Shown: in pieces, positions 6,102-36,790 of the stretch
Numbering within the stretch: position 1 is the stretch's first letter
Layout: each line of letters begins with the position of its first letter
Virus record (IMG/VR): IMGVR_UViG_3300037119_004955
Location: 1 to 58,924 of that record
Length of the DNA: 58,924 nucleotides
Strand: one strand, 5' to 3'
Origin: a virus
The notes under the pieces: model-generated
Database searches by the model: none
What the model saw: only the letters and a program-made list of their open reading frames with translations
Told to the model about the DNA's origin: nothing
Made by a program: the position numbers and the translations under genes

Positions 6102-7551
6102 TGTTCACCACCGTTGCTTCGTCCATACAGACGTCAAACTGCAGACCTTCCAATCCGTCCACGTAAGCGACTCCGTATCGCATAGTGTCCATTCCGTGAT
6201 TGTCTCTATCTTCAGGTACCTCCTTAGGGGTCTTGCCTTCCTTCTTCTGAGGGTAAGAGTACCCATCAAACTCAGCTGTCGTCTTAGTCGGCAGGGACTC
6301 TGCCACTAATTCTGGGTCCGTCTCATGCAGCGCGTCAGGCAGGAAGAATATCCTTGGCCGACCATCCTCCTGGACAAGAAGCCTACCACGCACCGCCTCG
6401 ATACCAGGTTCAATCGCTTTGAATGCTGGCTGCGTCGGTATTCCCGCACGTTCAAGCGTCGCCCTGTCTTCAGCATCGTGATCACAGATCGTGGCCTCAA
6501 TCTCTTCCCCTGCCGAAAGCAGTTGTATTGTCTCCGCATGATCGGCGACCAGTCTTCTGGAGAAATAGATCTCTCTATAGAGATACATCCTTTTGTCTTC
6601 GTCGATCGCCCACCACTGGCAGACGAATGGATTGATGAACCCGAAATCTATTACTCTAATCCTGCGCCATGATGCTGGCACATCCGCACGGTACTTGATT
6701 AGCGGGGTCCCGCTGTGGATGTCCTCGCTGAAATCTGGATATACCGAACCTTCGGCAGCAGCCCACAGTCCCTTAAGCAGTCGTGACTTACGCGCTCCGG
6801 TCAGCCTCGACAGCCTCGCAATATAGTTCGCGCCAAAAGCTGTTGGTGTGCCGTCAACATTGTACAGTATCGGATTGTCCTGGTGCCTGCTCCGCAGCCT
6901 AGTCATCACCTCACGGCGCGATGCCCTCTTGTTCAGCCAGTGACTCGGATACGTCGGGTTGCAGTCCACGATGATCTGCTGATAAGGCACCATCCCGTTA
7001 CGAAGTCTGGTAGTCAGATTTTCAAAGTCTTCCTCCGACGCTTCCGTCCCCTCGAAAAGTATGATAATGTCGTAGTCTGACGACATGATGCGAGTGGACT
7101 TGTCAAGGCCTCCCACAACAATGATAGATCCGTTAGGATACTTGTAACTCTGACGGAAGTTTCTCTGAGGGCCATACAATGCTGGGAAGTCCGCTTGTAC
7201 AACCTTCTCCTCATACGTCACCAGGACAGTCTCGCTAAGACTTTCGCGAGTTTTTCTAACGAGAAGTATTCTGCAACCAGGATACTTCATCGCTATGAGA
7301 TGTGCTTTCTCAAGAGCCCCGCGAGACTTCCCGGTGCCAGCAGGACCCTCGATCAAAATCTCAGGGTCCTTATTCTTCCATAGCTCCCTCGCAGCCCCTC
7401 GTGGCTCGTAGGCGCGTGACCCCACAGGAAACCTGAGGGAGGCACCTTCTGGAGAAAAAACGCCTGCGGCTGCGCTGGCGGCACGATAAACCTTCACGCG
7501 CATGCGCGGGCTACGGCTAGGGCTGCGAGGATCGAAAACCTTACACTTCAT
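6055..7551 (-). CDS. terL: Terminase large subunit
   Basis: The product is the packaging motor ATPase and headful or site nuclease. Walker A is GPAGTGKS at about residues 69-76, Walker B is the hydrophobic strand IIILFEG near 163, and the RNase H-like nuclease domain starts at VIDFGFINPF near residue 290, whose aspartate would be the first metal ligand. A later ICDHDAEDRAT segment gives the second acidic cluster. With the start at ATG 7551 the length is 498 residues, normal for the family; an upstream start at 7584 would overlap the preceding gene by 26 bases. A copy of the dispersed motif lies inside the nuclease domain at 6553 and another near the N-terminus at 7445. Confidence 0.92.
   Translation of the reverse strand: MKCKVFDPRSPSRSPRMRVKVYRAASAAAGVFSPEGASLRFPVGSRAYEPRGAARELWKNKDPEILIEGPAGTGKSRGALEKAHLIAMKYPGCRILLVRKTRESLSETVLVTYEEKVVQADFPALYGPQRNFRQSYKYPNGSIIVVGGLDKSTRIMSSDYDIIILFEGTEASEEDFENLTTRLRNGMVPYQQIIVDCNPTYPSHWLNKRASRREVMTRLRSRHQDNPILYNVDGTPTAFGANYIARLSRLTGARKSRLLKGLWAAAEGSVYPDFSEDIHSGTPLIKYRADVPASWRRIRVIDFGFINPFVCQWWAIDEDKRMYLYREIYFSRRLVADHAETIQLLSAGEEIEATICDHDAEDRATLERAGIPTQPAFKAIEPGIEAVRGRLLVQEDGRPRIFFLPDALHETDPELVAESLPTKTTAEFDGYSYPQKKEGKTPKEVPEDRDNHGMDTMRYGVAYVDGLEGLQFDVCMDEATVVNSENTYNQGSVLQHAA
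6553..6562 (+). repeat. Dispersed motif core, exact copy
   Basis: In the terminase gene; coding strand reads YFSRRL, a different frame from the protease copy. Confidence 0.8.
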
Positions 7552-15444: not shown

Positions 15445-15465
15445 TGCTTCGCGATCGCGGTCAGC

Positions 15466-15550
15466 TTAGCTTATCGGAGCTTATCGGAGCTTATCGGAGC
15501 TTATCGGAGCTTATCGGAGCTTATCGGAGCTTAGCTTATCGGAGCTTAGC
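15466..15550. repeat. 10-bp tandem repeat (TTATCGGAGC units)
   Basis: Six consecutive units of TTATCGGAGC are followed, after an extra TTAGC, by a further TTATCGGAGC. The array lies in the 125-base gap between two minus-strand genes, immediately upstream of the motif and start codon of the beta-helix gene. On the minus strand the unit reads GCTCCGATAA. The near-perfect identity implies a recent expansion. It does not have the unit size or spacers of a CRISPR array. It could be a protein-binding array or a slippage-prone promoter element. Confidence 0.95.
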
Positions 15551-15552
15551 AG

Positions 15553-15735
15553 TCAGCTTTGAGCAGCCGCTACCACTCGCACCTCGTGCGGCGCAGGAGC
15601 GTGACCCACATAGTAATCACATAGCACCTTCCACCGAGCATTGTCGCCTTCCGGGAGGTGTGGGTTCGGGTCACCGCCGCTAAACATCTGACGGGGTTCC
15701 AGACGCTCTACGAACGTGGGACGCAGGACGTTCAT
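15553..15735 (-). CDS. 60-residue protein with an LEPR-type N-terminal motif
   Basis: The residues VERLEPRQMFSGGDPNPHLP near the N-terminus match the LEPR-x-LL type motif that starts many large surface proteins of planctomycetes and a few other bacteria. There the motif is followed by thousands of residues; here the protein ends after 60, with WKVLCDYYVGHAPAPHEVRV. ATG 15735 overlaps the stop of the upstream membrane protein by four bases, so the gene is coupled to it. It may be a decoy for, or inhibitor of, a host sorting system, or an exported peptide. This is inference from one short motif. Confidence 0.6.
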   Translation of the reverse strand: MNVLRPTFVERLEPRQMFSGGDPNPHLPEGDNARWKVLCDYYVGHAPAPHEVRVVAAAQS

Positions 15736-17351: not shown

Positions 17352-17448
17352 TTTCACGGGAGAGGGAGACGCCGGGATCCGCGCTTCCATGCGCCGCGGC
17401 GAACCGGGAGGGGCCTGAAAAAAAAAGCTTTTTTTTCGGCTTTTTCTT

Positions 17449-34286: not shown

Positions 34287-34297
34287 AAAGATTTGTT

Positions 34298-34326
34298 TTG
34301 CTTTTCGTTCTCGTTTCGGTTAAAAT
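34298..34326 (+). promoter_or_regulatory. Early promoter P5
   Basis: TTGCTT (34298-34303), 17 bases, TAAAAT (34321-34326). Upstream are AGAAAAAG and TGAAAAG tracts. It drives the Ala/Lys-rich protein gene at 34416. Confidence 0.8.
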
Positions 34327-34415: not shown

Positions 34416-35033
34416 ATGGGACTGAAAGTTACTCGACCCGCAGGCACTGTGCCGAATAAGGCTCCGGCTGCCAAGGCAGCCAAGGCTCCGAAGGAACCCA
34501 AGCCAGCCCGACCCAAGATCTCCGCCACCGATGAAGAGATCATGGCTCTGTGCGCAGGGAAGTTGAACCCTCGCGACTACAAGGGCACGGCGCAACAGGA
34601 CGCACTCACGCAGGTCTCGGAAGATGGCAAGGCAGTCGGTCGTCCTCTGGGGGTATCCACCGGACTGCCCATCCAGCTGGCCTTTGGATACATGTTCCAG
34701 GAAAACCAGAAGGTCGCGTCCGCGTGTCGCATCAAGGGACTTGGTCACGCCACCGATGAGAAGTGCTCCGCGTGGATCAAGCGCGAGTTTCCTGGACGAG
34801 GTGCCGGTACCTTTGACAACATTGCCTACTGTCGCCGATACTTCAATAACGGTCAAGGCACCAAAGGCAACAAGCCGAAGTGGACCTCCGACCGGTTCGA
34901 CGACAACGGCGCAGCGATGGCCCCCGGCACTCGCGGCTTCAGCAAGAAGGAAGCCGTGCCTGCGAAGGCTGCCGTCGCCACCAAGCCGGTACTGGCGAAA
35001 CCCAAGGTAGTCGCCCGAAAGGCTGCGGCCTAA
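34416..35033 (+). CDS. Ala/Lys/Pro-tailed protein, possible DNA-binding
   Basis: The 205-residue protein has a histone-H1-like N-terminal tail (PNKAPAAKAAKAPKEPKPAR) and a C-terminal tail of the same kind (KEAVPAKAAVATKPVLAKPK). Between them is a compact domain of about 110 residues (FGYMFQENQKVASACRIKGL; YCRRYFNNGQG). I do not recognise that domain. The basic tails suggest binding to DNA or RNA polymerase. It has its own promoter and a GAAAGGAAAG ribosome binding site, so it is probably made in quantity. Confidence 0.7.
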   Translation: MGLKVTRPAGTVPNKAPAAKAAKAPKEPKPARPKISATDEEIMALCAGKLNPRDYKGTAQQDALTQVSEDGKAVGRPLGVSTGLPIQLAFGYMFQENQKVASACRIKGLGHATDEKCSAWIKREFPGRGAGTFDNIAYCRRYFNNGQGTKGNKPKWTSDRFDDNGAAMAPGTRGFSKKEAVPAKAAVATKPVLAKPKVVARKAAA

Positions 35034-35045
35034 TCACGATTTGGA

Positions 35046-35168
35046 TCTGACGGCGCACTATGGTTAAGTGCCAGTGATGACGATGGACCCGGCTAGGTGT
35101 GGTCATCCCCAGAGACTTACGTCTCGTTTGAGGAAACCGGGTGAGCAGGTTCGAATCCTGCCGTCAGA
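35046..35168 (+). tRNA. tRNA-like element without a clear anticodon arm
   Basis: TCTGACG (35046-35052) pairs perfectly with CGTCAGA (35162-35168). GCAC-TATGGTTAA-GTGC makes a D-arm with the expected GG loop, and GCAGG-TTCGAAT-CCTGC makes a canonical T-arm. Between the D- and T-arms are about 75 bases instead of 22. These fold into other stems (ACCCGG/CCGGGT and GAGAC-TTAC-GTCTC) and give no standard 5-bp stem with 7-base loop. No CCA is encoded. It may be a tRNA with an intron or insertion, or a tRNA-mimic used for 3' end processing. Confidence 0.6.
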
Positions 35169-35209
35169 TTTGTTGCGAAAAAATATTTGAAAAAAGTGCA
35201 AAAAAACTT

Positions 35210-35238
35210 TAGCTTTTCAAGAACGTTTCGGTTAAGCT
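35210..35238 (+). promoter_or_regulatory. Early promoter P6
   Basis: TAGCTT (35210-35215), 17 bases, TAAGCT (35233-35238), with A-tracts (GAAAAAATATTTGAAAAAAG) upstream. It drives the replication and recombination block. Confidence 0.75.
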
Positions 35239-35288: not shown

Positions 35289-35317
35289 CTGTGGTGCAAA
35301 AACCTAGGAAAGACACC

Positions 35318-36790
35318 GTGCCGGCTACCACGGAACTGCTCACTAACCCCGTCAACGCGCGCCTATCAAGGCGTTATGATCCTTTCTCGCCGCCCGCGAG
35401 GCCTCCACTCGCCCATCAGGTAGAATGCCTGAAGCGAATGAGAAGGCCTCGTGTGCTATGCGGCGCAGAGACACGCCTCGGCAAGATCACGATGTTTTTC
35501 CACTGGCTCCACCTAGCGAAGGTGGCTGGCCCTACGCTAGTAGTTTCCCCAATCTCAGCCCACGATGGATGGGTGTCCGACGCTGAAGCGGATGGTGTAG
35601 AACTATTGCAGTATTCGGATGGAGCCGCCCGAGTCCTCGACCGCTTTCTCTCCAGAGAAACGCGCACCCCTTTCTGTGTACTCACCAACAGCGAACAACT
35701 ATTCACCACAAAGCGACGTTCAGAGTCTGGCGCAGTGGAGTTAAAATCTATCGCTCAAATGCCATGGGCCGCGATATGCTACGATGAGGTTCAAGGACTG
35801 CGCAACGTTCGCTCGCAAAGGTTCTCTGCCATCTGTAGCCTGCGAGAACCGATACAAAATCGCTGCGCCCTCACCGGACAGCTACGCCCAGAAAGCCTGC
35901 TGGATCTGTATGGGCAGATGTTCTTCCTACACGGCTTCTTCATGGGATGTCGCAACTTCTGGCAGTGGCGTAGCAAATACTTTGAACTGAAAGGATATGA
36001 CTGGGTGCCGAAGCCGGGCATGGCTGACCTAATCAAAGCAGCTGCTCACTCCAACGGGGCAGTAATGACGAGGAAGGAAGCCGGCATTGAGATACCGGTG
36101 ACCGTCCGTAAAGAAGTGGTGCGGATAGATCCTTGGGAGAAGAAGATATACAGTTATGTGCGTAAGCACTGGTACTGGCCCGACAAACAGCTGAGCACGA
36201 AGTTTGCTGTCGTGACTTACGCATGGCTGTCAATGATCTCTGGGGGATCATACGCTCATTTACTCCCAGAAGGTGCGCCCCGTCAATGGATACCGGCGAA
36301 GCGGTTAGCTCTGCTGCGAATGCTCGCGAATGAGCCAAGGCAAGTTGTGGTGGCATACCGCTTCAACAAGGAGTTAGACGACTGTTGGCTATTCCTGGAG
36401 AAAAACGGAATCAAAGTGTCGCCGCCAATAACCGGCAGAATGAGTCGCGCCGATCGGGCTGCGCACTGCCGGATGTTCCGGAGGGGAGATTACGACGTGC
36501 TGCTGGCGCAGGCGAAAGCAATTAACTTAGGGGTGGACCTAGCTTGCGCCTCGGTGCTTGTGTGGTATTCCGTGGTGCTGGACAATCTTAGCTTTAAGCA
36601 GGTGTCCGACCGGCTGTTCCACCCACTCAAGAAGACAAGCATTGAAGTAGTATATCTGGTGGCGAAGGACACAGTTGACGAAGAGAATGTCGAACTGCTG
36701 CTGGACAAGCGTCTCGACTCCAGACTGTTCCAAAGTCGTCTGCATCGTAAGATAACCGACATCGTAGGAAAGAGGCCCTTGTGCGCGTGA
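35318..36790 (+). CDS. SNF2-family DEAD-like helicase
   Basis: The 490-residue protein follows the SF2/SNF2 plan: motif I CGAETRLGKITMF (residues 48-60), TLVVSPISAHDGW (motif Ia region), DEVQ (156-159, motif II), ALTGQL (motif III), and a second lobe with VVVAYRFNKELDD, VLLAQAKAINLGVDLACAS and QVSDRLFHP (motifs V-VI). The usual GKT is GKI here, which is unusual because the threonine binds Mg. The start is GTG 35318 with AGGAAAG upstream; a GTG nine codons earlier lacks one. Phage helicases of this type act in replication fork or recombination reactions. Confidence 0.88.
   Translation: MPATTELLTNPVNARLSRRYDPFSPPARPPLAHQVECLKRMRRPRVLCGAETRLGKITMFFHWLHLAKVAGPTLVVSPISAHDGWVSDAEADGVELLQYSDGAARVLDRFLSRETRTPFCVLTNSEQLFTTKRRSESGAVELKSIAQMPWAAICYDEVQGLRNVRSQRFSAICSLREPIQNRCALTGQLRPESLLDLYGQMFFLHGFFMGCRNFWQWRSKYFELKGYDWVPKPGMADLIKAAAHSNGAVMTRKEAGIEIPVTVRKEVVRIDPWEKKIYSYVRKHWYWPDKQLSTKFAVVTYAWLSMISGGSYAHLLPEGAPRQWIPAKRLALLRMLANEPRQVVVAYRFNKELDDCWLFLEKNGIKVSPPITGRMSRADRAAHCRMFRRGDYDVLLAQAKAINLGVDLACASVLVWYSVVLDNLSFKQVSDRLFHPLKKTSIEVVYLVAKDTVDEENVELLLDKRLDSRLFQSRLHRKITDIVGKRPLCA

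Follow-up and report, generated by a model that had tools for sequence, protein, structure and literature searches.

The DNA stretch analyzed here (the window; 58,924 nt) contains, starting 11 bases past the stop codon (35033) of a 205-amino-acid protein gene (gene X), an element that is very probably a conserved non-decoding tRNA-like RNA. The record, a phage genome, has the same sequence at its two ends (positions 2 to 54 are repeated at 58872 to 58924) and is therefore close to complete.

Structure and genomic setting of the element

The features of the element and its surroundings are as follows (window coordinates, strand, description).

34292 to 34326, +, promoter-like repeat predicted to drive gene X and the element (repeat family)
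34416 to 35033, +, gene X, 205 amino acids, kept in three relatives, with the element in its probable 3' untranslated region (UTR)
35045 to 35169, +, whole tRNA-like RNA element (single descriptor match in the genome; same place in two relatives)
35045 to 35052, +, acceptor stem 5' strand, ATCTGACG (8 Watson-Crick pairs with 35162 to 35169; covaries in relatives)
35055 to 35071, +, D-arm of 4 bp (35055 to 35058 with 35068 to 35071), loop TATGGTTAA with GG
35073 to 35144, +, 72-base insert at the position of the anticodon and variable arms
35076 to 35107, +, stem S1, GATGAC (35076 to 35081) with GTCATC (35102 to 35107), which crosses S2 (possible H-type pseudoknot)
35087 to 35142, +, stem S2, ACCCGG (35087 to 35092) with CCGGGT (35137 to 35142), the anticodon-stem analogue adjoining the T-arm
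35112 to 35125, +, insert hairpin GAGAC-TTAC-GTCTC
35145 to 35161, +, T-arm GCAGG-TTCGAAT-CCTGC (35145 to 35149 with 35157 to 35161)
35162 to 35169, +, acceptor stem 3' strand, CGTCAGAT, followed by TTG
35204 to 35236, +, predicted promoter-like repeat P6 of the next transcript (repeat family; absent in relatives)
35291 to 36790, +, DNA helicase, the next gene downstream (phrog_62, E = 1.8e-46)

A preliminary description had placed a tRNA-like RNA at 35046 to 35168, and our analysis confirmed it, the acceptor stem being lengthened from 7 to 8 pairs by A35045-U35169. The arms had been called textbook; this was right for the acceptor stem and the perfect T-arm but too strongly put for the D side, where G and C occupy positions 8 and 9 and U occupies position 14, and the U8-A14 tertiary pair is therefore missing. 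This pair is present in the relative G056, and T8 and A14 are present in the relative G057 (see below). Compared with a canonical tRNA, the window copy has the 7-bp acceptor stem, the D-arm, and the T-arm with consensus loops, and it lacks the 5-bp anticodon stem, the 7-nt loop, U33, and the U8-A14 core pair. The D-stem and T-stem are 73 bases apart (C35072 plus the 72-base insert), close to the earlier estimate of about 75 for the anticodon and variable arms. This region, reported to fold differently, is indeed enlarged, but the supposedly missing arm corresponds to S2 with a greatly enlarged loop. Because S2, which lies outside our search descriptor, was found next to the T-arm in all three known copies, the RNA is a cloverleaf with an enlarged anticodon arm.

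The element folds strongly (z about -2.5). Crossing 6-bp helices of the S1/S2 type arose in 1.45% of the shuffled inserts, and in 0.1% when the extra hairpin was also included. We treat the S1/S2 pseudoknot of the window insert as possible because S1 was found in neither G056 nor G057 and because nested folds with S1 or with S2 were nearly equal in energy (-44.7 and -42.6 kcal/mol). The arrangement of S1, S2, and the hairpin is similar to that of HDV-like ribozymes, a candidate that was rejected on comparison with their consensus (the 9-nt spacing between S2 and S1' leaves too little room for P3/L3, and there is no J4/2 signature). A degenerate motif copy (CATCCCCAGAGA) previously noted inside the insert looks like a chance occurrence; none of the three relatives has the motif (CATCTTCTGGAG).

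As had been described, the element lies between the stop codon of one gene (35033) and P6 (starting near 35204). Given that gene X has its own promoter-like repeat upstream and that the P6 copy follows the element, before the helicase gene, the simplest reading is that the element forms the gene X 3' UTR. Members of this repeat family (CTTTTGCTTTT, with an A/T-rich upstream part) occur at window positions 17446, 18128, 21542, 26382, 34295, and 35207, all on the plus strand, and the family was not shared by the three relatives. Another recurrent motif, CATCTTCTGGAGAAAAA, occurs on both strands (e.g., 2167, 13875, 15447 [minus strand], 38495, 48402, and 57428), with some copies immediately upstream of start codons; it is absent from the three relatives. 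The window also carries a tandem 10-bp repeat (AGCTTATCGG) at 15458 to 15562.

Detection and chance controls

The full descriptor matched the 58.9-kb genome once (both strands searched) and, with the D-arm included, never matched in 100 dinucleotide shuffles. A stricter descriptor gave 2 matches in 5.86 Mb of shuffled sequence, or about 0.02 expected per genome. No Rfam family, introns included, matched the element at gathering or permissive thresholds. ARAGORN, plain and with lowered thresholds, called no tRNA at the element, bearing out the reported lack of a standard anticodon arm, and there was no tmRNA call. It also found no ordinary tRNA in the window phage or its relatives. Annotation programs search for anticodons, and RNAs of this kind are therefore overlooked.

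Conservation and covariation in diverged relatives

No close relatives were recovered with the helicase, gene X, the DNA polymerase, or the motif CATCTTCTGGAGAAAAA as query. The terminase retrieved many phages having essentially only this gene in common with the window phage. The capsid protein retrieved three diverged relatives (G055, G056, and G057; 54 to 59% capsid identity), together with a short contig of the same phage. All three relatives encode gene X (36 to 38% identity). The sole strict descriptor match in G056 begins within the gene X stop codon (L206, 6835 to 6955), and the sole one in G057 lies 154 nt past this codon (L207, complement of 7282 to 7366); the window, G056, and G057 thus have one strict match each, all 0 to 154 nt behind the gene X stop. 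G055 has no strict match anywhere in its genome, although gene X is present, and its gene X is separated from the next gene by just 82 bases. G056 also contains tandem 9-bp repeats (GGACTGTTC; L206, about 2330 to 2500).

The stem sequences are almost wholly different among the three copies, yet they pair. In a helix-only alignment, 12 of the 22 pairs were changed on both sides, a result that comes from three sequences aligned helix by helix. Paired cells made up 95.5% of this alignment, a value approached by none of 500 shuffles and by no slid register; the acceptor, D-, and T-helices had been picked by the descriptor, and the descriptor shuffle rate given above is thus the cleaner control. 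S2, outside the descriptor, reads ACCCGG/CCGGGT in the window and G056 and is replaced by the compensatory CCCTTA/TAAGGG in G057. In G057 it takes the place of the anticodon stem and closes an 18-nt loop; in G056 it rests on a stem of 4 bp and is topped by a long, irregular hairpin. Beyond S2, neither the sequence nor the length of the enlarged arm (36 to 72 nt) is kept. The shape is retained at the same place in two distant relatives with different letters, which argues, from comparative sequence data, that the element is a real, selected structure.

These comparisons bear on three readings in which the element would derive from an ordinary tRNA, two of which, an intron-containing tRNA and a degraded tRNA, had been proposed in the preliminary description beside the tRNA mimic; the mimic is the one that fits a structure kept in two relatives. 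We consider it very unlikely that the element is a decaying tRNA gene. The anticodon is absent and U8-A14 is lost in the window copy, as decay would predict, but compensatory changes have kept the stems intact at the same position in diverged relatives, and none of these phages has another tRNA found by ARAGORN.

It is highly improbable that the element is a tRNA whose anticodon arm is interrupted by an intron and which is spliced into a decoding form. With introns allowed, ARAGORN did call a tRNA-Arg(ACG) with a 39-nt intron in the window copy, but 42 to 43% of the shuffled window inserts were also called, and the relatives were called as Thr with a 31-nt intron and Leu with a 13-nt intron instead. 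The calls on shuffled inserts reached 43%, 91%, and 26% for the Arg, Thr, and Leu copies, respectively, and the valid anticodon arm that would have supported this reading was therefore neither above chance nor consistent among the copies. Moreover, no intron family in Rfam matched, the acceptor stems differ completely between copies, and bacterial tRNA introns are mostly group I introns of much larger size.

A third reading, exceedingly improbable in our view, takes the element for an attP-type tRNA fragment used in integration. The T-arm and 3' acceptor strand are the usual attP piece, and the annotated attP cores of VWB and RP3 were among the blastn matches; such a fragment, however, needs neither a 5' acceptor strand nor a D-arm. 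The 24-mer string of T-arm and acceptor occurred in none of 84,980 species genomes, and a search covering tyrosine integrases found none in the four phages. Identity to the 3' half of a host tRNA together with such an integrase was not found.

Processing of the element as a tRNA mimic

We judge the chances a little better than even that the element acts as a non-decoding tRNA mimic within the gene X 3' UTR and is cut by tRNA-processing enzymes as follows. The acceptor/T-arm stack and the D-arm would be retained as the features that these enzymes read, with the anticodon loop replaced by a large structured extension on the anticodon-stem analogue. Host RNase P would most likely cut at or near the 5' end of the element, at or just past the stop codon of gene X, with the opposite end trimmed by an activity that acts on tRNA 3' ends. 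As a result, the gene X message would have a defined end and be separate from the transcript that follows, and the excised element would persist as a stable RNA of about 124 nt. We infer the cotranscription of gene X and the element, the cleavage, and the stability of the product.

The acceptor sequences differ among the three copies (TCTGACG, TAGAGTG, and ACCGTGG), as does the base after the stem; the kept feature would therefore be an enzyme-readable shape and not an aminoacylation identity. The acceptor/T stack is the part that RNase P reads in model substrates, and the element has it. Bacterial RNase P also binds the RCC(A) motif. No encoded CCA or RCCA motif is present in the window copy (TTG follows the acceptor stem) or in G056, and cutting may therefore be weak before CCA addition. 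In G056, the canonical +1 cut would land exactly before the gene X stop codon and yield a nonstop mRNA; if the processing explanation is true, this cut could also control gene X translation. Phage RNAs and pseudoknotted viral tRNA-like structures have been reported to be cut by RNase P (PMC12710915). Counting against processing, G055 has gene X without the element. Placement behind the gene X stop in all three copies is consistent with the transcript separation suggested earlier; the promoter repeat downstream, however, belongs to the window phage alone, and the cleavage remains conjectural.

Two readings without this processing step at their center were weighed. In one, which we regard as rather unlikely, the fold remains part of an uncut gene X mRNA, where it simply shields the 3' end or serves as a binding site for a protein, perhaps protein X. 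The position behind gene X in three phages, the missing CCA, and the strong fold would all suit such a cap, but a protective hairpin needs neither a consensus T-loop nor a D-arm. Protein X, moreover, had no detectable RNA-binding domain or fold match (the fold search used a moderate-confidence model). In the other, a possible but doubtful one, the element is a free RNA that acts through its enlarged arm as an antisense RNA, a protein sponge, or a decoy of tRNA-binding enzymes, and the tRNA-like part supplies ends and stability. All three copies have a large, structured arm, as does T4 RNA C (PMC3014915), but the sequence and length of the arm vary among them beyond S2, so that no common target is visible. 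This second reading shares ground with the processing explanation and would be an extension of it.

tRNA-like elements in streptococcal prophages and other viral contigs

Elements in streptococcal prophages, reached through the shared T-arm string GCAGGTTCGAATCCTGC, keep the T-arm and the 3' half of the acceptor stem around a middle of 8 to about 92 nt, and most have no anticodon. They form arrays of two to three elements (L002 to L067; e.g., L047 at 1718 to 2308, L007, L004, and L006) in the non-coding stretch before methylase/terminase genes and were unannotated in the phage records examined. Three array types (CGTCTCA, GGTCT, and TGTTCCT) were observed. Elements with the CGTCTCA 3' half measured 32, 37, 43, 65, 66, and 78 nt in total and those of the TGTTCCT type 41, 100, 105, and 123 nt, the middle shrinking to leave a minihelix of 32 to 41 nt or growing to give 123 nt. 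The constant acceptor/T half and free middle argue that the acceptor/T stack is the functional part of these elements, as RNase P reads it, and the independent retention of acceptor and T-arm is expected if this half alone is read. Unlike the window element, they were not accompanied by a gene X homolog in the two records tested.

Other viral contigs gave further observations. A 58.6-kb contig (L058, 1640 to 2100) carries an odd tRNA-like cluster with a repeated insert-like motif (GAGCCGAA...TTCGGTTATC), and a 59-kb contig (L042, 1200 to 1317) carries a tRNA-like element in which both the D-loop and the anticodon region seem to hold inserts. In L004, L005, L037, and L206, tRNA-like elements of unrelated phages adjoin ParB-like or DNA methyltransferase genes, which could be chance or a shared module. 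The L037 element (119 nt) has the same acceptor and T-arm as the window copy, an identity that does not speak for shared descent because the search pattern had fixed most of these letters.

The window copy, its two relatives, and the streptococcal arrays suggest that such RNAs may be common in phages. We put forward only tentatively the broader idea that anticodon-less tRNA mimics have repeatedly been retained or created in unrelated phages as gene-junction "punctuation." Host tRNA-processing enzymes would cut phage messages at these points, and the stable tRNA-like RNAs left behind would use the enlarged arm for a task particular to the phage.

Comparison with known systems

Apart from the T4 RNAs, the literature search yielded no comparable tRNA-like elements lacking an anticodon in DNA phages, which is weak evidence of absence because coverage of subscription papers was limited. 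GOLLD and ROOL are structured non-coding RNAs of phages and prophages that span several hundred nucleotides, a size far from that of the window element, which had no Rfam match. tmRNA likewise has tRNA-like ends flanking an anticodon-less, possibly pseudoknotted middle; the window element, however, is far shorter, has no called tag reading frame, and has U-A instead of G-U at pair 3-70. The tRNA-like structures of plant RNA viruses (TYMV and TMV) resemble it in tRNA mimicry with a pseudoknot and are RNase P substrates (PMC12710915). In those viruses the acceptor arm is formed by the pseudoknot, lies at the terminus of an RNA genome, and finishes with CCA, whereas the acceptor of the window element is an ordinary helix in a DNA phage.

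The nearest known kind, by anatomy, is phage T4 RNA C; T4 was absent from the listed blastn matches of the window element. T4 RNA C (species 1 RNA; 139 nt) and RNA D (119 nt) are phage small RNAs without a known role (PMC3014915) and were classed as late RNAs and checked by northern blotting (PMC9697503). In RNA C, a consensus T-arm (CCGGG-TTCGAAT-CCCGG) lies close to the 3' end, the long middle has no anticodon arm, and CCA is not encoded; the window element likewise combines a T-arm and tRNA-like 3' end with an anticodon-less middle. RNA C lies in a tRNA-gene cluster, and we found just 5 acceptor-like pairs in it; in contrast, the window element has an 8-bp acceptor stem and a D-arm and stands alone behind a protein gene in a phage without ARAGORN-found tRNAs. 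With the relatives described here, the old question of the purpose of T4-type tRNA-like phage RNAs can be tested directly, as can the idea that phages have their own messages cut by the tRNA-processing enzymes of the host.
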